This document shows positions 465 through 22,160 of a stretch of DNA of 37,535 nucleotides, one piece after another; position 1 is the stretch's first letter; every line of letters begins with the position of its first letter. The position numbers and the translations under genes were made by a program. The notes beneath the pieces were generated by a model that had not been told where the DNA came from, searched no databases, and saw only the letters and a program-made list of their open reading frames with translations. The DNA comes from Silicimonas sp. (lineage in GTDB: Bacteria > Pseudomonadota > Alphaproteobacteria > Rhodobacterales > Rhodobacteraceae): contig JAJDOD010000070.1 of the NCBI GenBank assembly GCA_022340315.1, positions 1-37,535 of the forward strand, given 5' to 3'.

Positions 465-644
465 GTGACCGAATTCATCTTCGCCATTGCGATCTTCACC
501 CTTGCAGCCGGAGGCCTCGGCCTCGGCCTGATGTTCGGGCGCGGGCCTGCCCGAACGAGCTGTGGGGCGACGGATCGCCTGGCTCGGGGCCGTTGCGTCG
601 ATTGTCCGCTTCGCCGTCGCGCGGTGGGAAGCGAGGGATCATGA
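465..644 (+). CDS. nqrM: Na+-NQR maturation protein NqrM (DUF539 type)
   Basis: A 59-residue ORF too short for the ORF track, starting at GTG 465 and ending at TGA 642-644. It has one N-terminal membrane helix (FIFAIAIFTLAAGGLGLGLMF), then GRGPARTSC, and a small cysteine cluster RGRCVDC. That is the plan of NqrM: a short membrane anchor followed by conserved cysteines, thought to supply iron to the NqrD/NqrE site. The stop overlaps the ATG of the next gene by 4 bp (ATGA), and apbE ends 13 bp upstream, so the three genes are probably co-transcribed. Family assignment rests on layout, cysteines and context. The conserved-residue match cannot be aligned here. Confidence 0.72.
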   Translation: MTEFIFAIAIFTLAAGGLGLGLMFGRGPARTSCGATDRLARGRCVDCPLRRRAVGSEGS

Positions 645-1033
645 CCGCGTATCTTGTCCGCGAGATTGTCCGCAAGGACACGCCGGTTCTGACCCCGGAG
701 ACTCCGATTCGGCGCGCGGCCGCTGTTCTTGTCGATGCAAGATCGGCTGCCGCCCCCGTGGTCAGCGACGACGGCGAGTTGATCGGCATCCTGTCGCAGA
801 AGGACTGTTTCATCACTGCGCTCCACGCCAGCTATCATCACGAATGGAAAGGCAAGGTCGCCGACATGATGACCCGCAGCGTTGTCACCGTCGATTTCGA
901 GGACGAAGTCATCCGAAGCGCCGAGATGTTCATTCAGCACCCGCACCGTGTCTTTCCGGCTCTGCAATCGGGGCACGTGGAGGGGCTGCTTTACCGCTCG
1001 GATGTCCTAGCGTTTCTGATGCGGCACGGTTAG
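641..1033 (+). CDS. CBS-domain protein
   Basis: A 130-residue protein starting at ATG 641, preceded by GAGGG and overlapping the nqrM stop. The longer ORF in the track (from 593) only adds residues read across nqrM. It consists of two CBS motifs: residues about 5-60 (VREIVRKDTPVLTPETPI ... DDGELIGILSQKD) and about 70-128 (VADMMTRSVVTVDFEDEV ... VEGLLYRSDVLAFL). CBS pairs bind adenine nucleotides and usually regulate an attached or partner protein. No catalytic domain is attached. Its place at the end of an apbE-nqrM operon suggests a nucleotide-responsive accessory of Na+-NQR, which is inference. It converges on galT with 26 bp between the stops. Confidence 0.82.
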   Translation: MTAYLVREIVRKDTPVLTPETPIRRAAAVLVDARSAAAPVVSDDGELIGILSQKDCFITALHASYHHEWKGKVADMMTRSVVTVDFEDEVIRSAEMFIQHPHRVFPALQSGHVEGLLYRSDVLAFLMRHG

Positions 1034-1059: not shown

Positions 1060-2097
1060 CTAGCCCGGCTCCGAGTGCGTCAGCGTGTCGGATTGCTCCC
1101 GCAGCCGATATGCCGCCTGTTCCGCCGAGAGATCCCTTTGCGGCTCGGCCAGCATCTCGTATCCGACCAGAAACTTCCTCACCGTCGCCGATCTCAGGAG
1201 CGGGGGATAGAAATGCGCATGAAGCTGCCAATGCGCAACGTCGGCTTGATGCGGAGGCGCTCCGTGCCATCCCATTGAATACGGAAACTCCGTCCCGAAC
1301 AGGTTGTCGTAGCGCGCACAAAGGCTCTTGAGGATGCCGGCAAGCGAGGCGCGCTCGGTCGCATCGAGATCGGTCAGCCGCGGCCGGTGCCGCAATGGCA
1401 TCACGAGCGTTTCAAATGGCCAGACGGCCCAAAACGGGACCACTGCGACCCAGTCCTTGTTTTGGGCGACCACGCGCGCCTCGCGATCGAGCTCTTCTTG
1501 CGCGTAGGTAACGAGCAGGTTCGATCCACTCTCACCGAGATAGTCCCTCTGCGAACGATCCTCGCGCTCGACCTCGCTCGGGACGAAATCCGACGCCCAG
1601 ATCTGCCCATGAGGATGCGGGTTGGAACACCCCATCATGGCGCCCTTGTTCTCGAAAATGGCGACCCAGGCGTAGTCGCGCGCCAACTCTTCGTATTGCT
1701 CGATCCAGACGTCGATGACGCTGCGGACAGCCGTTTCCGGCAATGCCGGGAGCGTCAGATCGTGGCGCTCGGAGAAACATATGACCCGCGAAGTGCCGCG
1801 CGCGGTCTGCGCCTGGAAAAGTGGCGAGTCCGCAACTGCATCTGCGGGCGTGTCCTTCAAAAGCGCGGGGAAGTCGTTCTCGAACACAAAGGGCCCCGTA
1901 TAGTCCGGGTTGGCAGAGCCGTTTGCGCGCCTGTTGCCCGCGCAGAGATAGCAGTTCGGATCGTGCCGAGGGCGATCGTTCGGCAAGGGGTCTTCGGATT
2001 GCCCCTGCCACGGGCGCCGGTTCCGGTGCGGAGACACCAGAACCCATTCACGCCTCAGAGGGTTGTAGCGCCGATGCGGGTGTTCCTCGAAGTTCAT
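1060..2097 (-). CDS. galT: Galactose-1-phosphate uridylyltransferase
   Basis: A 345-residue protein, the normal length for class I GalT. It exchanges UMP between UDP-glucose and a hexose 1-phosphate through a uridylyl-histidine intermediate. The zinc pair is visible as CYLC (C49, C52) and the catalytic loop as [14 protein letters not shown] (about residues 157-170), with the H-P-H nucleophile motif and Gln165. Later motifs [11 protein letters not shown] and LHAHFYPP are also present. It is the last gene of the operon that starts with the deoR gene, 47 bp after the IMPase gene. No galK or galE occurs in the cluster, so its hexose 1-phosphate may come from the phosphodiesterase step rather than from a kinase. 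A related sugar-1-phosphate is possible as substrate. Confidence 0.93.
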
Positions 2098-2144: not shown

Positions 2145-2978
2145 TCAGGGCAAAGCCGCCGCCAAATTCGCGATATCCCGGCCCATCGCCTCGGACCGGG
2201 CTGCGACGATCCTGCCGTCCGAATGGGTTGGGGAATTGGGGTGTTTGCCGTCAACCGCAGCCCGTCCGCCGCCTTCTTCGAGAAGCAGCAGGCCGACCGC
2301 ATGGTCCCAGGGCTTCAGTGTGAAGGAGCGGAGGAAATCGACATACCCGGAAGCGAGAAGGCGGTATTCGTGGCATGAACACCGTATATCCCGAATATGG
2401 AACACGGCATCGAACCCTTCCCGGACGATTTTTCGTGTCTCTGTTTCGTAGTCATCGAGCGTCACGAACCCCCGGGCCTCGCCCAGTGCGCGGGTCACTG
2501 CGCGCAGTCGGATCTGCGATTGGGCTCCGTTACGGCTGCGAAACCAGGCGCCACCTCCGAAAATTGCGAACATCCAATCGTCCAAAACGGGATCGTGCAA
2601 CAGCCCGAACACCGTTTGCCCCTCGTGCTCCACCGCGAGGATGGATCCGAAAACGGCCAGGCCGGCGACGAAATTTCCAGTGCCGTCAATAGGTTCTACA
2701 ATTACACAGGTTTGACGGGTACCGATGGAGTCAAGAAGGCGGGGGTCGTCGGCGACGGCCTCTTCGCCAATCACGGCGGCGCCCGGAAGCACCTGCTCGA
2801 CGCCTTTTCGTATTGCCTCCTCTGCCGTACGGTCTGCGACGGTGACAACGTCCATCGGGCCTGATTTCGTCGCTATGTCATCGGCTGCGAGATTGCGGAA
2901 CCGCGGCATGATCACCTCGGCCCCGGCGCGCCGCACCACGTTGGTCAACTCTTCGATTTCCTGCCCCGTCGGGATCAC
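2145..2978 (-). CDS. Inositol monophosphatase-family phosphatase with altered metal motif
   Basis: A 277-residue IMPase-fold protein. Metal motifs are GEE (71-73), EPIDGTGNF (95-103) and PWDHAVG (about 223-229). In most of the family the second motif is DP(I/L)DGT, with the first Asp coordinating metal. Here it is Glu95, read directly from the codons, while Asp98 and Asp225 are kept. Family members dephosphorylate inositol phosphates, sugar phosphates, histidinol phosphate or PAP. The start overlaps the stop of the phosphodiesterase gene by 4 bp, so the two are translationally coupled and probably act in sequence. It differs clearly from the second IMPase in this window (SuhB at 24217). Substrate unknown. 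Confidence 0.85.
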
Positions 2979-3763
2979 CTGGCCAACCCGCGCACGCGCT
3001 GGGGCGTCACGAGGTGGCGGCCTCCGGGTCCGAAGTCGTGCAAGTAGTAGAAATCCTGGAGCATTGTCGGGCGGATCGGGTGATCTCCGAAGGGCAGAGC
3101 GGAATCATACGGCGCAACCATGCTCCCGGCCACATAGCAGTCGATATTGTGCTCCGACGCGAAAAAGGGCCGGTGGACATGGCCCGACAGGATCTTGATG
3201 GTCATGCCTGAGCCGCGAAGGATATCCATCAAACGCTCGTGCCCTTTCAGCCGGCAGAAGCCATCGAATTTGTCGAGGCCCAGAAGAAGTGGGGGGTGGT
3301 GCATTACGATCAGAAGCGAACCTTCGCCGCCATCGCGGGCGACTTCTTCGGCAACCAGCGCCAGGCCTTCCTCGTCGAGCTCGCCTTCGACCGCACCCTC
3401 GATGCATGTGTCCAGGCCGAGGCAGCGCATGCCGCCGAACTCCTTGACCCGGTTAGTGATGTTCCAGTCGGCAAAAACCTCGGAAGACGCCGTATAGGCG
3501 CGCATCCCCGCTGGCCCGTCGTGATTGCCGGGAACGATGACGACCGGCAGGCCGATTTCGCTGAACATCCGCTCGAAGTCGGCAAATGCCGCCGCGTCGG
3601 CGCGTTCGGTCAAGTCGCCCGAAACAATGACCAGATCGACTGCCTCGGAGATGCCGGCCAGATCGCGGGCGACCGCTTCTGCGACCTCGGCAGCGGGCCG
3701 TCCTCCACCGGGTGCGATTTCGCGCATTCCAAGATGCAGGTCTGACACATGGGCCAGCCTCAT
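2975..3763 (-). CDS. Calcineurin-like metallophosphoesterase (GpdQ/CpdA-type phosphodiesterase)
   Basis: A 262-residue binuclear metallophosphoesterase. All five motif blocks are present: D8-L-H10, GD at 49-50, GNHD at 79-82, MHH near 154-156 and GHVH at 194-197. The layout matches class III cyclic nucleotide phosphodiesterases and glycerophosphodiesterases of the GpdQ type. No signal peptide is seen, so it should act in the cytoplasm on imported substrate. It sits directly after the two permease genes and overlaps the IMPase gene by 4 bp. By context, a phosphodiester brought in by the Ugp-type importer is the likely substrate, but cAMP or another diester cannot be excluded. Confidence 0.87.
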   Translation of the reverse strand: MRLAHVSDLHLGMREIAPGGGRPAAEVAEAVARDLAGISEAVDLVIVSGDLTERADAAAFADFERMFSEIGLPVVIVPGNHDGPAGMRAYTASSEVFADWNITNRVKEFGGMRCLGLDTCIEGAVEGELDEEGLALVAEEVARDGGEGSLLIVMHHPPLLLGLDKFDGFCRLKGHERLMDILRGSGMTIKILSGHVHRPFFASEHNIDCYVAGSMVAPYDSALPFGDHPIRPTMLQDFYYLHDFGPGGRHLVTPQRVRGLAR

Positions 3764-3806
3764 AGCAGGCTCCCGGACAAGTGGCGCCTTGTGACCGACC
3801 CTCGCA

Positions 3807-4619
3807 TTACTTGATCCCCGCTCGCATGAAGTTGGCGACGAACTGCCGCTGGAAGATGAGGAAAGCGATTATCAGCGGTGCCGTCGTCATCAGCGTCGCC
3901 GCGTTGACCAGCGACCATTCGATCCCGCTTTCCACGGTTGCGAAGACGCTGAGACCGACGGTCACAGGCCGCACTTCGGGCGAGTTCGTGACGATCAGCG
4001 GCCACAGGAAGTTGTTCCAGTGAAAGCTGATCGAAACCAGTCCATAGGCCAGGTACACCGGCCGCGCGAGCGGCACGTAGACGGTCCAAAGAATGCGCCA
4101 GGCGCCGGCGCCCTCCATCTGTGCCGCCTCGTCCAACGACTTTGGCACGGTCAGGAATGTCTGCCGCAGCAGGAAGATCCCGAACGCCGAAGTCAGATAG
4201 GGCAGGGCGATGCCGATGATCGTGTCGGTCAAACCGATTGTCGACAGCGTCAGATAGTTCTCGACGATGAGGATCTCGGGGGAAATCAGCAACTGCACCA
4301 TGACGAGGCTGAACAGAAACCCGGCCCAGCGGAACCGGTAGCGAACGAATGCATAGGCAACCAGCGTGCAAAGGATCAGGTTCGCAACCAGCACGGTGAC
4401 GATCAGAATGACGGTATTCAGGAAATAGAGCGCGAAAGGCGCGGCCTGCCACGCCTCTGTAAAGTTTGAGAGCGTCAAGGGTGCGTTCCAAACGAAGTTG
4501 GCCGAATATTTTTCCGGGTGGAACGCGGTCCAGACCGAATACAGGAACGGCAATCCCCAAACCGCCGCCAACACGAAAGCTACCGTCGCAAATGCGATCC
4601 TGTTCAGACCATCGCTCAT
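3807..4619 (-). CDS. ABC transporter permease, MalG/UgpE type
   Basis: A 270-residue inner-membrane protein with six predicted hydrophobic segments. The first is at about residues 8-28 (IAFATVAFVLAAVWGLPFLYSVW), after which the protein runs YSANFVWNAPLTLSNFTEAW. The EAA loop that docks the ATPase is visible as SLDEAAQMEGAGAWRILWTVYVPLARP. It is the second permease of a carbohydrate/glycerol-3-phosphate-type importer. Its ATG overlaps the TGA of the first permease by 4 bp, and the metallophosphoesterase gene starts 43 bp downstream. UgpE is the closest role by context. The symbol is withheld because substrate specificity is not shown. Confidence 0.9.
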   Translation of the reverse strand: MSDGLNRIAFATVAFVLAAVWGLPFLYSVWTAFHPEKYSANFVWNAPLTLSNFTEAWQAAPFALYFLNTVILIVTVLVANLILCTLVAYAFVRYRFRWAGFLFSLVMVQLLISPEILIVENYLTLSTIGLTDTIIGIALPYLTSAFGIFLLRQTFLTVPKSLDEAAQMEGAGAWRILWTVYVPLARPVYLAYGLVSISFHWNNFLWPLIVTNSPEVRPVTVGLSVFATVESGIEWSLVNAATLMTTAPLIIAFLIFQRQFVANFMRAGIK

Positions 4620-5491
4620 TGATAGTGCGCCTTTCTGTTAAGGACCCAGAACTGAATGGCCGCCATGAAACCGAGGATGACCACCATCAGCACCGTGAGG
4701 GTTGCGCCATAGGCGAAGTCGCGGAACCCGAAGGTCACCTCGTAGATGTAGTAAAGCAGAAGCGAGCTTGAATTGTTCGGCCCGCCGCGCGTCATGACCA
4801 CGATATGATCGACCAGGCGGAAGGCGTTGATAAGCGCGTTGACCGCAACGAAGATCGTCGTCGGTCGGAGAAGCGGCATCACCACATCGAAGAAGATGCG
4901 CACCGAACCGGCACCTTCCAGCCGGGCCGCATCCTTCAGGTTCGTCGGAATCGACTGGAGTGCGGCAAGATAGAAGATCATGAAAAGGCCCGCCTCTTTC
5001 CAGACCGCCACGACCATCATGGAAACGAGCGAGGTATCCGTGCTGCCGAGAAAGTTTATGGATGGCAGGCCGAAAGCATTGAGGATCTGCGAGGCCAGGC
5101 CGATTCCGGGGGCGTAGAAGAAAAGCCAGATATTGGCGACAGCCACCATCGGCAGCATCGTCGGCAGGAAAAACGACAGGCGCATCAATCCGGTTGCGGG
5201 CAGCCTCGAGTTGACCAGAAGCGCCATGCCGATCGCCAGCGCAATGGCCAGGGGGACCGTTCCGATGGCGTAGATGAAGCTGTTGCTCAAAACCTGCATC
5301 AGCTTGTCGTCTTCGAGAAGCGCCTCGTAGTTTCGCGCACCGACGAAACGTGACGGCCGTATCGAGCTTCCGTTGTTCCAGAAGGAATTCAGTAGCGCCT
5401 TGAACGCCGGGTAGTGCGTGAATGCCACCAGGAGCGAGCAGGGCACGAAAAGCAGGATGAACCCCATTCCGTATGACAACCGCATATTCAT
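4616..5491 (-). CDS. ABC transporter permease, MalF/UgpA type
   Basis: A 291-residue inner-membrane protein with six hydrophobic segments. The first is FILLFVPCSLLVAFTHYPAF, followed by the periplasmic YEALLEDDKLMQVLSNSFIYAIGTVPLAIALAI region. The EAA loop reads NLKDAARLEGAGSVRIFFDVVMPLLRP. It pairs with the downstream permease to form the transmembrane channel. It follows the binding-protein gene after a 78-bp spacer that holds a strong hairpin (5528-5552), so it is probably expressed at a lower level than the binding protein. No strong Shine-Dalgarno sequence is visible before ATG 5491. A second Met two codons later is an alternative start. Confidence 0.9.
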   Translation of the reverse strand: MNMRLSYGMGFILLFVPCSLLVAFTHYPAFKALLNSFWNNGSSIRPSRFVGARNYEALLEDDKLMQVLSNSFIYAIGTVPLAIALAIGMALLVNSRLPATGLMRLSFFLPTMLPMVAVANIWLFFYAPGIGLASQILNAFGLPSINFLGSTDTSLVSMMVVAVWKEAGLFMIFYLAALQSIPTNLKDAARLEGAGSVRIFFDVVMPLLRPTTIFVAVNALINAFRLVDHIVVMTRGGPNNSSSLLLYYIYEVTFGFRDFAYGATLTVLMVVILGFMAAIQFWVLNRKAHYQ

Positions 5492-5527
5492 ATGTCAGAT
5501 CACTCGCATCCGCTGGCTTGATTGCCC

Positions 5528-5552
5528 GCGCGCCACGAGAGGCGTGGCGCGC
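5528..5552 (-). promoter_or_regulatory. Intercistronic hairpin after the binding-protein gene
   Basis: Perfect 10-bp inverted repeat GCGCGCCACG / CGTGGCGCGC with a 5-nt loop, beginning 17 nt after the stop of the solute-binding-protein gene. There is no T-tract behind it on the minus strand, so it is not a typical intrinsic terminator. Hairpins at this place in binding-protein operons commonly protect the upstream message from 3' exonucleases or partly end transcription, giving excess binding protein over permease. The repeat is seen directly. The role is inferred. Confidence 0.75.
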
Positions 5553-5569
5553 AGGTGACGCATCGTGCC

Positions 5570-6856
5570 TCAGCGATACTCGCCGAGAACCTCGTCCGCC
5601 TTTTCCTGGGCCTCCGCCAGGGCGGTCGCTGCATCGGTCCCGCCCGTGATGACACCCTCGATCGCATCGACAAGATACTGGGTTACACGCGCACGCTGGA
5701 ACGTCGCGAACTCGCGATAGGCATGCGGCATCTGTTCAAGCGCCACGAGTGCCTGCGGCAGACGCTCCGAATAGGCCTGCATCTCCGGCGTTTCCCAGGC
5801 AGCCTGGCTGGGAGCGATATAGCCGGTGGCCATGCTCCAGATCGCCTGGTTCTCGGGTGTCGTCATGAAGCGAACGAAATCCAGCGCCGCATCGCGTTCT
5901 TCGTCGGTGATGTCCTTGAAGATGTAGAAGTTGCCTCCGCCGACAGGCGCTCCGGGTCCGTCCCCGCCGGGAAGGAAGCCAACGCCCCAGTCGAACTCGG
6001 CATTCTCGTTGATGAAGGCGAGGTTCCCCGTGGACGTCCAGATCGAGGCCGCCTGACCTTCAAGGAAGGCTTTTGGCGTATCGCCCCAGGTGATGCCGCC
6101 CGGTGCCATGACCTCTTCATCGGCCAGACGTTGCAGGAATTCGAGCGATGCCTTGGCGGCTTCAGTGTTGAAACGCGCCTCGGTTCCGGTGTCGGTGGAA
6201 AGTCCGTCACCCTTCGACTTCACGAGACCGCCGAACAACCAGGCACCGGCAAGGCCCAGGTTCGGAATGCGTGTGCCCCATTGCGTCACGTTGCCATTGC
6301 TGTCCTTGACGGTCAGCTTCTTGCCCATCTCAACCATTTCGTCCCAGGTCGCGGGCGTAACCTCTGGGTCAAGCCCGGCGGCGCGAAACGCATCCTTGTT
6401 GTAATAGAAAACAGGGGTCGAGCGCTGGAAGGGGATCGAATATACCTTCCCGTCAAACATCGTGTCGACCATGAAACCATCGTAGAAGCTGTCGATCCAC
6501 GCCTTGTCCGCGTCCGAGGTCGCGATGTCCGAGATCGGCAGGATCACGTCCTCTTCGATTAGCGTGAAGATGTCGATGGCCAGCAGCACCGCCACCTGAG
6601 GAGGGTCGCCCGCCTGCGCCGCCGTCAGAGCCTTGGTTGTGGTTTCCTCGTAGTTGCCGGCATAGACCGCCTTCACCGAATGCTGCGGGTTCTGTGCGGC
6701 CCAGGCATTGGTCAGTTGCTCGATCGTGGCCACGGCAGGCGCGTTGACGCCAACCGGAAAATAGAACTCAAGATCGGCGGCTTGGGCCATTGAAGCGGAG
6801 CATGCTATTGCCGCACTCATGACCAGCGGCAGGGCGGTTCTCATTCTTGCATTCAT
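5570..6856 (-). CDS. UgpB-like extracellular solute-binding protein
   Basis: A 428-residue periplasmic binding protein. The signal peptide is clear: positively charged MNARMR, a hydrophobic core, and a likely cleavage after AQA (about residue 26), giving a mature start near ADLEFYFP. The segment IPFQRSTPVFYYNKDAFRAAGLDPE resembles the glycerol-3-phosphate binding protein UgpB, as I recall its sequence. Length also fits the family 1 extracellular solute-binding proteins. The start is supported by a strong GGAGGAAAAGAC-ATG ribosome binding site. Together with the ATPase and two permeases it completes one importer. UgpB likeness points to a glycerophosphodiester or sugar phosphodiester rather than a plain sugar, as inference. 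Confidence 0.9.
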   Translation of the reverse strand: MNARMRTALPLVMSAAIACSASMAQAADLEFYFPVGVNAPAVATIEQLTNAWAAQNPQHSVKAVYAGNYEETTTKALTAAQAGDPPQVAVLLAIDIFTLIEEDVILPISDIATSDADKAWIDSFYDGFMVDTMFDGKVYSIPFQRSTPVFYYNKDAFRAAGLDPEVTPATWDEMVEMGKKLTVKDSNGNVTQWGTRIPNLGLAGAWLFGGLVKSKGDGLSTDTGTEARFNTEAAKASLEFLQRLADEEVMAPGGITWGDTPKAFLEGQAASIWTSTGNLAFINENAEFDWGVGFLPGGDGPGAPVGGGNFYIFKDITDEERDAALDFVRFMTTPENQAIWSMATGYIAPSQAAWETPEMQAYSERLPQALVALEQMPHAYREFATFQRARVTQYLVDAIEGVITGGTDAATALAEAQEKADEVLGEYR

Positions 6857-6906
6857 GTCTTTTCCTCCATGTTGCCGCCGAAGTCGGCGGTATTTCGTGT
6901 GTCGGT

Positions 6907-7971
6907 CTAAAGGGCGAAATCCATTGAAGCCCCATCCGACTTGTCAAAGAGATGTGTGGCCGCGTCAGGCCAGTTGGCAGTGACCTCGGACCCTTCCTCC
7001 GGCACGCCGTCCCCCGAATGCGCGACCACAAATCGGGTCCCCGACGGCGTGATGAGATGCACGAGGAAGACCTTGCCTTCGTATTCGAGACTTTCCACGC
7101 GCGCATTGACCGAAAACCCGGCGTCTCCCGCATCCAGCCCCAGGCTTTCCGGCCGAACACCGAACAGCACGTCGGACTTTCCGGCACCATTTGCGGGCGC
7201 CAGCGTTGCCGGTGCCTGAACATCCTGCGCCTGCAACAGGTTCATGGGCGGCGTACCGATGAACCCCGCGGCAAAGGTATTGGCGGGCCTGTCGTACAGT
7301 TCCTTCGGCGTACCCACCTGGCTGACTTCACCGGCATTCATCAGAACGACCTTGTCGGACATCGACAAAGCTTCGCTTTGGTCATGGGTGACGTAGACCA
7401 CTGTAATGCCGAGCTTTTTGTTCAGGGAGCGGATTTCGCTTCGGATCTCGACACGCAGTTTCGCATCAAGGTTCGAGAGCGGCTCATCCATCAGGACAAG
7501 CGGACGGTCGGAAACCAGAACACGGGCCAGCGCAACCCGCTGCTGCTGGCCGCCGGAAAGCTGCGCCGGCTTCCGGTCCAGCAGCTTGCCGAGTGCCATC
7601 AGTTCCGCCACCCGAGCCATGGCCTTTTCCTTCTCGGCCTTCGGAACCTTTCTGACCTTGAGGCCGTACGAGATGTTCTCGGCGATCGTCATGTGCGGAA
7701 ACAGCGCGTAGTTCTGGAACACCATCCCGATGTTCCGCTCGGCTGCCGGGGTCCGGGCAACGTCCTTGCCGCCGATCAGAATCTGTCCGCCGCTCACCTC
7801 GTCGAGACCGGACACCAGCCGCAGTATTGTGCTTTTGCCGCAGCCCGAAGGTCCGAGCAGCGTCAGGAACCCGCCCGGTTCGATCGAGAAGTTGACGTCC
7901 CTCAGGACCTCCACGGCGCCCCAGCTCTTGGCGAGGCTCGCGACCTCGAGCGATACACCCGCGGCGCTCAT
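6907..7971 (-). CDS. ABC transporter ATPase, UgpC/MalK type
   Basis: A 354-residue ATPase. It shows Walker A GPSGCGKST (near residue 38-46), Q-loop FQNYALFPH, signature LSGGQQQR, Walker B VLMDEP and the switch histidine in VTHDQSEA. The C-terminal third is the OB-like regulatory domain typical of MalK/UgpC (VLFGVRPESLGL ... VARVESLEYEGKVFLVHL-type segments). Its ATG overlaps the regulator stop by 4 bp. It energises the importer encoded downstream. The C-terminal domain could bind a regulatory partner, as in MalK and UgpC, but nothing in the sequence proves that. Confidence 0.94.
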   Translation of the reverse strand: MSAAGVSLEVASLAKSWGAVEVLRDVNFSIEPGGFLTLLGPSGCGKSTILRLVSGLDEVSGGQILIGGKDVARTPAAERNIGMVFQNYALFPHMTIAENISYGLKVRKVPKAEKEKAMARVAELMALGKLLDRKPAQLSGGQQQRVALARVLVSDRPLVLMDEPLSNLDAKLRVEIRSEIRSLNKKLGITVVYVTHDQSEALSMSDKVVLMNAGEVSQVGTPKELYDRPANTFAAGFIGTPPMNLLQAQDVQAPATLAPANGAGKSDVLFGVRPESLGLDAGDAGFSVNARVESLEYEGKVFLVHLITPSGTRFVVAHSGDGVPEEGSEVTANWPDAATHLFDKSDGASMDFAL

Positions 7972-8744
7972 GCCAGCACCACGGAGATATCGGCGTTCTC
8001 CAGTTGCGTGCGGCTGGCGTGGTCAATCCCCTTGTCGGTGACCAGACAATCTATGCTGTCGAAGGAGGCCGTCCGGATAAAGCCTGCCGCTTGCAGCTTC
8101 TCGTGGTGGGCAACGACGAAGTTCCGGCGCGACGCAGCAACGACCTCTGCTTGAATCTGACTATAGCCCTCGTCTCCGATCGAGATTGATTTCCGGGTAA
8201 GGTCGATCGAGGAGCAGCAGAGAAACGATATGTCGAAAGACAATGTCCGGATTGACGAGATGGCAAGGTGACCGCCGAACGAGTCGTTCACACCGATATA
8301 GGCGCCGCCGATCAGATAAAAGTTCGATATTCCCTGGTCGCGCAACCGCGATGCAATCCTCAGGCAGGTCGTGACGTAGCGGCATCCAGGCTTGAGATGG
8401 GCGTATTCGGCAACTGCAAGGGCGGTGGTGCCGGCATCGAGGAACACGGTCTCGTCGTTACCCAGAAGTTCGATCGCTGCCCGCCCAATTCTACGTTTCT
8501 CTTCCGAGTGGATCAGAATCCGCTCTTCATTTGGAAGATCCACGAAGGCACTTGCGTTGTTCAGTACGCCCCCGTGGGTGCGCGTCACCACGCCGGTCTC
8601 GCCAAGTTCCCGCAAGTCTCGGCGAATGGTCGCTTCCGACACGCCCAATTCCCTGGAGAGATCTCCGACCGCAACGGAGCCACGCCCTTCAACCAGATCC
8701 ACGATCTTGCGGCGGCGCGCTGCGCCAAGTCGAACGCTGTCCAT
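7968..8744 (-). CDS. DeoR-family transcriptional regulator
   Basis: A 258-residue regulator and first gene of the operon. The N-terminal winged helix-turn-helix is visible at residues about 10-60 (RRRKIVDLVEGRGSVAVGDLSRELGVSEATIRRDLREL, then TRTHGG). The C-terminal part is the sugar-phosphate sensor domain with IGRAAIELL, DAGTTALAVAEY and VTTCLRIASRL segments. DeoR-family proteins usually bind a phosphorylated sugar that releases them from DNA, which fits a pathway producing sugar phosphates. A GTG at 8745-8747 directly precedes the chosen ATG, so either may start translation. Neither has a good Shine-Dalgarno sequence. Palindromic and repeated motifs upstream suggest autoregulation. Confidence 0.92.
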   Translation of the reverse strand: MDSVRLGAARRRKIVDLVEGRGSVAVGDLSRELGVSEATIRRDLRELGETGVVTRTHGGVLNNASAFVDLPNEERILIHSEEKRRIGRAAIELLGNDETVFLDAGTTALAVAEYAHLKPGCRYVTTCLRIASRLRDQGISNFYLIGGAYIGVNDSFGGHLAISSIRTLSFDISFLCCSSIDLTRKSISIGDEGYSQIQAEVVAASRRNFVVAHHEKLQAAGFIRTASFDSIDCLVTDKGIDHASRTQLENADISVVLA

Positions 8745-8745
8745 C

Positions 8746-8836
8746 ACTGCGCAATACTGATCGCTAGTGAGCGCATTTCGAATACATCCCTCCCCAAATG
8801 AGCAAAATCAGTCGTAACTGCGCAATTTCGCGCAGT
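8746..8836 (-). promoter_or_regulatory. Candidate DeoR-type operator region
   Basis: A perfect inverted repeat ACTGCGC-6-GCGCAGT lies at 8817-8836, about 70 bp upstream of the regulator start. The half-site ACTGCGCAAT recurs in the same orientation at 8746-8755, abutting the start codon. GCGCATTTCG (8771-8780) and GCGCAATTTCG (8820-8830) share a TTTCG core like that reported for several DeoR-family operators. Three related sites across 90 bp suit cooperative autoregulation of the operon. The repeats are visible. Binding is inferred. Confidence 0.55.
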
Positions 8837-9429: not shown

Positions 9430-9622
9430 CTGGCGTCAGATTTAGTCCACCAAGTTCGAGGATTACTTCCAATGCCGGGTCAATGCGGCCCGGCGTCAAT
9501 TTCCTTCAATGAGCTGTCGTTGACTGTTGAACTCCGCAGGGCAGGCTTGTCCGCACAGCGGTCATTCAATGGTTGCGGCGTGAACGTCCGCTTCGTCACT
9601 CCTGGCAGACGATGCCCTTGGA
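9430..9622. other. Non-coding stretch, nothing recognised
   Basis: Between the two weak ORFs on the 3' side of tRNA-Glu I see no supported gene, repeat or terminator. The sequence is less GC-rich than the flanking conserved genes. Confidence 0.4.
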
Positions 9623-9814
9623 CTAACCCCTCAACGCCGCGTATACCGCCAAGTCCGGCAGCGCCAGCACCTTCGCGGCCTCTCTCAACATCCCCGCCCC
9701 TGACGGCAGCTTGGCGATCTCTTCACGGTCGGTCCACGTCTCGCGCGCCCATACAGCGCGGTCGTCAGGAAGCAGGCTTTCAAGGTTAGCTTTGCGCCCT
9801 CGGCGGTCGGGCAT
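9623..9814 (-). CDS. Short hypothetical ORF or gene remnant beside tRNA-Glu
   Basis: A 63-residue ORF (MPDRRGRKANLESLLPDDRAVW ... KVLALPDLAVYAALRG). It is polar at the start and has a plausible helical C-terminus. I do not recognise a family. The frame stays open upstream of the ATG for at least a dozen codons, so it may be the tail of a longer broken gene. Its codon bias is closer to the host than that of the ORF at 9004. It lies 74 bp from the 3' end of tRNA-Glu, the side on which elements integrating at this tRNA would insert, so it could be an island remnant. Confidence 0.3.
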   Translation of the reverse strand: MPDRRGRKANLESLLPDDRAVWARETWTDREEIAKLPSGAGMLREAAKVLALPDLAVYAALRG

Positions 9815-21048: not shown

Positions 21049-21099
21049 TAACCCCTGCGACCCTACGTTGGGGTTATGGATAAATTGCGTGTAACCCCA
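21049..21099. repeat. Three alternating TAACCCC elements upstream of the DUF2235 gene
   Basis: TAACCCC at 21049-21055, its complement GGGGTTA at 21071-21077, and TAACCCC again at 21092-21098. Their starts are 22 and 21 bp apart, two helical turns. The inner pair extends to TGGGGTTA/TAACCCCA, an 8-bp inverted repeat whose last base is the A of the start codon. A protein bound here, or the hairpin in mRNA, would cover the translation start. Confidence 0.6.
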
Positions 21100-22160
21100 T
21101 GATGTTGAAGGAGCGCCTCCGCGACCTTCTGGGGTTTTTTCGGCGCACCGAGCGTACGGTCCATGCCCATGCCCGCGAACCCGTCGATCATGTTGTGCTG
21201 CTGGACGGCACCATGTCCTCGCTCGAGGAGGGGGAGGAAACCAACGTCGGTTTGATTTACAAACTGCTCGACGAGGCCGCGCAGAACCACCGCATCGGCA
21301 TTCTCTACGAGGCGGGGAACCAGTGGGAAGACTGGTCCAAGACGCTGGACATCATCGAGGGGCGCGGCATCAACCGTCAGATCCGGCGGGTTTATGGCTG
21401 GCTCGCTTCGCGGTATCGGCCTGGCGACCGGATTTTCCTGATCGGCTTCTCGCGCGGCGGCTATGCCGTGCGCTCGCTGGCGGGCGTTATCGGAGAAGTT
21501 GGGCTTCTCAGGCGCGAACATGCGACCGAACGGATGGTGCGCGAGGCCTATCGCCACTACCAGGACGGAACGTCTTATGAAACGGCCCAGGCCTTCAAAC
21601 GCGCCTATTGTCTCGACGACGCGCCCATCGAGATGATCGGGGTGTTCGACACGGTGAAATCTCTGGGGTTCCGGGCGCCATTCGTGGTGCGCTGGGCCGA
21701 GGTAAAGCACGCCTTCCACAATGCCGCTCTGGGCGAGCATGTGAAGCGGGGCTATCACGCGCTGGCGCTTGATGAAACGCGCGAGGCGTTTACGCCTGTG
21801 CTCTGGAGATGTCCGCCGGGGCACAAGGGAATTGTCGAGCAGGTCTGGTTTCGCGGCAGCCACGGGGACGTGGGCGGCCAGCTGACAGGCAAGGCTTCGG
21901 CGCGGCTTCTGTCCAATATCCCGCTTGTCTGGATGGTCGAGAAGCTGGATGGCTGTGACCTGCCGCTGCCGCCGGCCTGGCGTGCGCGTTTCCCGATGGA
22001 TCCGGATGCCGAGTGCGTTGGTACATGGCGTGGCTGGGGGAAGTACTTCCTTGCCCGCAAGAAGCGTGTCGTGGGCGAAGACCCGTCCGAAAGCATTCAC
22101 CCCACTGCCATCGGGCGCTCGAAACGCGCGATGGGTGCCGGCGACCCGGTGACGTCCTGA
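21099..22160 (+). CDS. DUF2235 alpha/beta-hydrolase-like protein
   Basis: A 353-residue protein of the DUF2235 family. The hallmark is GFSRGGYAVRSLAG (about residues 115-128), a nucleophile elbow with Ser in GxSxG-like form. It is preceded by the DGT segment (VVLLDGTMSSLEE) near the N-terminus and followed by GVFDTVKSLG, both typical. A late WFRGSHGDVGGQ supplies the expected Asp-His region. Family members include type VI secretion phospholipase effectors (Tle1-type), but most are uncharacterised. No VgrG, PAAR or immunity gene is nearby and no signal peptide is seen. Two Met codons (21099, 21102) overlap the repeat elements, so regulation at initiation is possible. Confidence 0.85.
   Translation: MMLKERLRDLLGFFRRTERTVHAHAREPVDHVVLLDGTMSSLEEGEETNVGLIYKLLDEAAQNHRIGILYEAGNQWEDWSKTLDIIEGRGINRQIRRVYGWLASRYRPGDRIFLIGFSRGGYAVRSLAGVIGEVGLLRREHATERMVREAYRHYQDGTSYETAQAFKRAYCLDDAPIEMIGVFDTVKSLGFRAPFVVRWAEVKHAFHNAALGEHVKRGYHALALDETREAFTPVLWRCPPGHKGIVEQVWFRGSHGDVGGQLTGKASARLLSNIPLVWMVEKLDGCDLPLPPAWRARFPMDPDAECVGTWRGWGKYFLARKKRVVGEDPSESIHPTAIGRSKRAMGAGDPVTS

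Follow-up and report, generated by a model that had tools for sequence, protein, structure and literature searches.

The galT gene analysed here is the last gene of an eight-gene operon which, judging from comparison with known systems, probably serves the catabolism of a galactosyl phosphodiester in the manner of the agrocinopine operon. GalT would take the galactose 1-phosphate (Gal-1-P) that is released, and no galactokinase would be needed for a sugar that already carries its phosphate on entry. The operon lies in the window, by which is meant the whole 37,535-nucleotide stretch of Silicimonas sp. DNA that was analysed. In the proposed pathway, an intact phosphodiester, linear or cyclic, would be carried into the cytoplasm by the UgpB-like binding protein and its ABC importer and then be hydrolysed by the GpdQ/Rv0805-type phosphodiesterase, with α-D-galactose 1-phosphate as at least part of the product. 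GalT would exchange Gal-1-P with UDP-glucose, giving glucose 1-phosphate for glycolysis and UDP-galactose, the latter being recycled by a GalE encoded elsewhere, where one is present. The IMPase-family phosphatase would dephosphorylate the other half of the diester or surplus Gal-1-P, the Na/Pi transporter of related operons might dispose of the inorganic phosphate, and the DeoR regulator would sense a sugar phosphate made by the pathway. The proposal draws on gene content, conservation, the absence of galK, intact active sites, the phosphate ligands of the binding protein and the repeated assembly of GalT with unrelated phosphodiesterases; the substrate, the side of cleavage, the direction of Pi transport and the regulation are the parts that we infer.

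The eight genes form a same-strand block from 8747 to 1060 (Table 1), which looks like one operon because the intergenic gaps are −4 to 78 bp throughout. The first-pass annotation had described galT as lying behind a phosphodiesterase and a phosphatase, with neither galK nor galE in its operon, and a reading of the eight genes agreed on both counts. A scan for promoters and terminators gave a signal no better than that of shuffled sequences. On the far side of galT, a small two-CBS-domain protein (593-1033, plus strand) converges on it at a distance of 26 bp, and a truncated ApbE occupies the window edge (2-451).

Table 1. Genes of the galT operon in the window, from first to last
Product	Position	Strand	Size	Basis or remark
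DeoR-family regulator with DeoRC sensor domain (usually sugar-phosphate responsive)	7968..8747	-		PF00455, PF08220; first gene of the operon
UgpC/MalK-like ABC ATPase	6907..7971	-		profile matches
UgpB-like solute-binding protein	5570..6856	-		best PDB match UgpB; residue mapping over 20 homologues
ABC permease, UgpA/MalF-like	4616..5491	-		PF00528; NCBIfam best match UgpA
ABC permease, UgpE/MalG-like	3807..4619	-		PF00528; NCBIfam best match UgpE
Calcineurin-type phosphodiesterase of GpdQ/Rv0805 (class III PDE) type	2975..3763	-	262 aa	PF00149
IMPase-family (Inositol_P) sugar/polyol-phosphate phosphatase	2145..2978	-	277 aa	PF00459, 124 bits
galT, UDP-glucose--hexose-1-phosphate uridylyltransferase	1060..2097	-	345 aa	last gene of the operon

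The last gene encodes a full-length GalT, with uridylyl transfer to Gal-1-P as its predicted activity. It scores 520.9 bits against TIGR00209 (cut-off 102.1) and 557.5 bits against NF008724 (cut-off 448), and is 60% identical to the E. coli enzyme. Its active-site motifs were earlier noted as intact, and they are: at the positions compared, the metal ligands, the HPH nucleophile and the hexose site have the E. coli identities, these being the roles that we take the E. coli residues to have.

The window's genome (G000; 3.33 Mb in 210 contigs, 86% complete) carries a single GalT. The PF10509 profile found no galK in it, an absence that weighs little at 86% completeness, and nothing in the same incomplete assembly exceeded the TIGR01179 cut-off for galE, the best galE-like match being a dTDP-glucose 4,6-dehydratase. 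GalT could then be an ordinary Leloir enzyme in a chance neighbourhood, its galactokinase being a non-orthologous kinase encoded elsewhere or one lost in an assembly gap, and both the incompleteness of the genome and the limitation of the search to PF10509 kinases would allow for this. Such an explanation is nevertheless very improbable. The same search detected galK directly beside GalT in three relatives, and thus works in the family, whereas it found none in the seven other genomes that bear the operon (98-100% complete), nor in two further genomes, G301 and G376, described below. Moreover, none of these operons showed a kinase gene, and GalT recurs at the end of the operon in five of the eight genomes that have it (four of the seven other genera). 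A separate galK/galE cluster lacking its own galT, named in the first-pass annotation as the mark of an ordinary Leloir GalT, was not found in G000, nor was any galK found in the seven relatives. All ten galK-less genomes carry dgoK, the DeLey-Doudoroff gene, which points to a non-Leloir route for free galactose.

In the family sample of 397 genomes, 17 GalT genes were found in 16 genomes; ten of them touch galK and seven do not. Each of the seven shares its operon with genes for an ABC importer and a phosphodiesterase and belongs to a genome without galK. Five belong to the window-type operon and two (G301, G376) to an unrelated one, here called type B, which has a different ABC importer family and a PF08975 2H-phosphodiesterase, with a Na/Pi cotransporter in G376. 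These seven cases lend comparative support to the earlier suggestion that diester hydrolysis, and not a kinase, may supply the hexose 1-phosphate. A plasmid of Parasedimentitalea marina combines a type B importer with a GDPD phosphodiesterase, an IMPase and GalT, so that GalT was found with three unrelated phosphodiesterase superfamilies (calcineurin type, 2H (PF08975) and GDPD), and its link with phosphodiesterases therefore arose repeatedly. In the GalT tree, the proteins of G301 and G376 form a separate supported clade, and a single clade of the window-operon type is neither supported nor rejected (p-AU 0.21). A class-wide search of 385 genomes added only one new GalT, adjoining galE and galK.

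Whereas galK was not found in any of the operon-bearing genomes, five of the seven operon-bearing relatives have a true, unlinked galE, and these genomes thus do not all lack the later part of the Leloir pathway. Nothing over the galE cut-off was found in G362, G018 or G000, and the best galE-like match of G362 is 85% identical to the dehydratase of the window's genome. This lack of galE in G000 and G362 is what one would expect if GalT were a salvage enzyme, charging diester-derived Gal-1-P to UDP-galactose for surface polysaccharide instead of burning it. Salvage is improbable all the same: an operon GalT and a true galE coexist in G083, G309 and G350, and the layout is otherwise catabolic, with a DeoR regulator and an ABC importer. 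With no recognisable galE in G000 and G362, the fate of UDP-galactose there is left unexplained by the catabolic proposal, which counts against it.

For the phosphodiesterase, the PDB neighbours by sequence are Rv0805 and GpdQ, and the same two are the best fold matches of its AlphaFold model (pLDDT 92.9). Its metal-binding motif residues D8, H10, D50, N80, H155, H195 and H197 are invariant in 20 homologues. GpdQ/Rv0805-type enzymes are promiscuous, and the cut need not leave the phosphate on C1 of galactose. The phosphatase stays under every NCBIfam equivalog cut-off, with E72, E73, D98, G99, T100 and D225 invariant in 18 homologues. The best solved relative of the binding protein is UgpB. 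In Phaeobacter UgpB, phosphate is bound by Tyr64, Ser143, Ser266 and Tyr342, ligands that are common to binders of GPC and of a dinucleotide and not to glucose binders, while a Glu and an Arg hold the glycerol hydroxyls (PMC12718374). When 20 homologues were aligned with E. coli UgpB, the Trp clamp not being confidently alignable, the two Tyr and two Ser proved to be kept in 20/20 (Y69, S146, S275 and Y346 in the window). The glycerol contacts are replaced in 20/20, Glu by Ala or Ser and Arg by Thr, at about 26% identity, where the Arg column could shift. Phosphate ligands that are kept beside glycerol contacts that are gone suggest a ligand in which phosphate is joined to something other than glycerol.

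The phosphodiesterase occurs at high score in 8 of the 397 genomes, the window's and those of seven other genera, each time in the same operon, and in the fetched neighbourhoods the DeoR regulator, ATPase, binding protein and permeases keep an unchanged order. The permeases are 80-97% identical and the phosphodiesterases 40-63%; along window positions 2975-5491 and their relatives, divergence is very uneven, identity between genera reaching 97% for the permeases and about 63% for the phosphodiesterase. The overlap of window-type operon and GalT has a hypergeometric p of 2.8e-6 with phylogeny ignored, a value that measures linkage rather than independent co-occurrence, as GalT sits inside the operon. 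A scan of genome contigs gave no matches with the phosphodiesterase protein as query; with the binding protein it gave further genera, among them Jannaschia faecimaris, whose copy has GalT, as well as a more divergent group that lacks GalT and whose phosphodiesterase is about 30% identical. No GalT adjoins at least three copies of the operon (L032/L050, L033/L061 and L066), although their binding protein is 64-78% identical; together with the divergent group, these copies indicate that GalT is optional in the operon, a point against the galactosyl proposal. A Na/Pi cotransporter with a PhoU domain, absent from the window's copy, stands between phosphatase and GalT in L031, L034, L035 and L049, and a Na/Pi cotransporter comes directly or later after the phosphatase gene in L032/L050, L057 and L066. 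In L030 (G018), a 1.7-kb insertion (5212-6917) with a 532-aa ORF separates the binding protein from a permease and the phosphatase is present only as a fragment (9511-9687), so that this copy looks degraded.

An operon in which GalT is optional, and whose core is widespread without it, might have been built for another polyol phosphodiester, such as glycerophosphoinositol or inositol 1,2-cyclic phosphate, with phosphodiesterase and IMPase leading to inositol and GalT added on for minor galactosyl analogues. An IMPase-family gene does follow the phosphodiesterase in most full copies, operons with a 2H phosphodiesterase and an IMPase but no GalT occur, and iolE (inosose dehydratase) is over the cut-off in five of the eight window-type genomes. 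With only five of eight, however, inositol is the weaker fit as substrate, iolE being below the cut-off in G362, G083 and G388. The operon of G362 (same contig as Kangsaoukella pontilimi L046) has GalT but lacks the phosphatase, GalT has joined operons with three unrelated phosphodiesterases, and in an inositol pathway there is nothing for GalT to act on. A polyol substrate is thus unlikely, though less so than the two alternatives above, and a galactosyl phosphodiester is preferred.

The closest experimental precedent is the acc operon of Agrobacterium (accR-accABCDE-accF-accG), in which agrocinopine A is imported whole and cut to a sugar phosphate by the phosphodiesterase AccF, with AccG as a putative phosphatase (PMC4526662). 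The two share a repressor or regulator, ABC import of the intact sugar phosphodiester (proposed for the window), a cytoplasmic phosphodiesterase and a phosphatase. They differ in that AccF yields a sugar 2-phosphate and sucrose, that no GalT is described for acc and that the window phosphodiesterase is of calcineurin type. The window operon would work like acc; on this comparison of gene functions, and with a phosphodiesterase of calcineurin type, it is not filed as a member of it. With ugpBAECQ of E. coli, which takes up glycerol-3-phosphate and glycerophosphodiesters, it shares the UgpB/A/E/C-type importer, a phosphodiesterase within the operon and the phosphate ligands, but its phosphodiesterase is calcineurin-type instead of the GDPD-type UgpQ, the hydroxyl-contacting Glu and Arg are replaced, and a phosphatase, GalT and a DeoR regulator are added. 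From the Leloir operon galETKM it has GalT itself, and lacks galK, galE and mutarotase.

Plasmids offer further parallels. Ti and other Agrobacterium plasmids encode a protein 46% identical to the type B binding protein of G376, and three of the operons concerned (L111-L113) read ROK-ABC-GDPD-IMPase-Na/Pi followed by gtfA (sucrose phosphorylase; in two of the three) and/or an aldose 1-epimerase, with traR nearby. Slots for an importer, a phosphodiesterase, an IMPase and a sugar-specific enzyme are common to these and the window operon, and the Na/Pi slot to the window's relatives, whereas the importer is of another family (related to that of G301 and G376) and sucrose phosphorylase or aldose epimerase replaces GalT. 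L111-L113 look like a second agrocinopine-type opine locus with a different importer family. On plasmids of Thioclava, Alloyangia and Rhizobium etli (L083, L084, L085), an operon of ROK, binding protein, permeases, UgpC, DUF1868 (2H phosphodiesterase) and IMPase is followed by GDPD in one case and by PhoX in another, which suggests a role of DUF1868 in organophosphate catabolism. Operons for sugar phosphodiesters thus seem to form a modular class, the terminal enzyme of each being matched to the sugar set free, and for GalT the match would be Gal-1-P. In enterobacteria, export of Pi is promoted by the Na/Pi co-transporter YjbB (PMC11389368), as would suit a pathway releasing surplus phosphate. 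Plasmid searches with the window phosphodiesterase gave distant matches only, and those with the binding protein (best 52%) led, at the two loci read, to transporters without phosphodiesterase or GalT.

A broader and more tentative idea, to which we give somewhat less than even chances, is that widespread, undescribed sugar phosphodiesters serve as marine nutrients and feed the Leloir pathway below galactokinase, through modular operons in which interchangeable phosphodiesterases (metallo, 2H, GDPD) hand Gal-1-P to GalT. 2H enzymes act on cyclic phosphates, and given their presence in GalT operons, hexose 1,2-cyclic phosphates are one candidate substrate, which is speculation. We know of no galactose 1-phosphodiester established as a marine nutrient, and this counts against the galactosyl proposal; open-access papers yielded nothing useful on galactose 1-phosphodiesters or inositol phosphodiester importers. 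The proposed function of the operon would amount to a way into galactose metabolism that needs no kinase and would point to sugar phosphodiesters as an overlooked marine source of carbon and phosphorus, following a logic documented up to now for agrocinopine, a plant-tumour opine. It also offers a concrete, testable use for those GalT genes that an annotation pipeline would put down to an incomplete Leloir pathway.

Two distant genomes (L054 and L065) carry after the operon, at 14.8-20 kb, genes for an RpiR-like regulator, a metallo-beta-lactamase-fold protein, a cupin sugar isomerase-like protein and an FGGY-like kinase, all identified by eye. Elsewhere in the window, positions 21099-22160 (plus strand) encode a protein with a T6SS Tle1-like phospholipase catalytic domain (PF09994, 213 bits).
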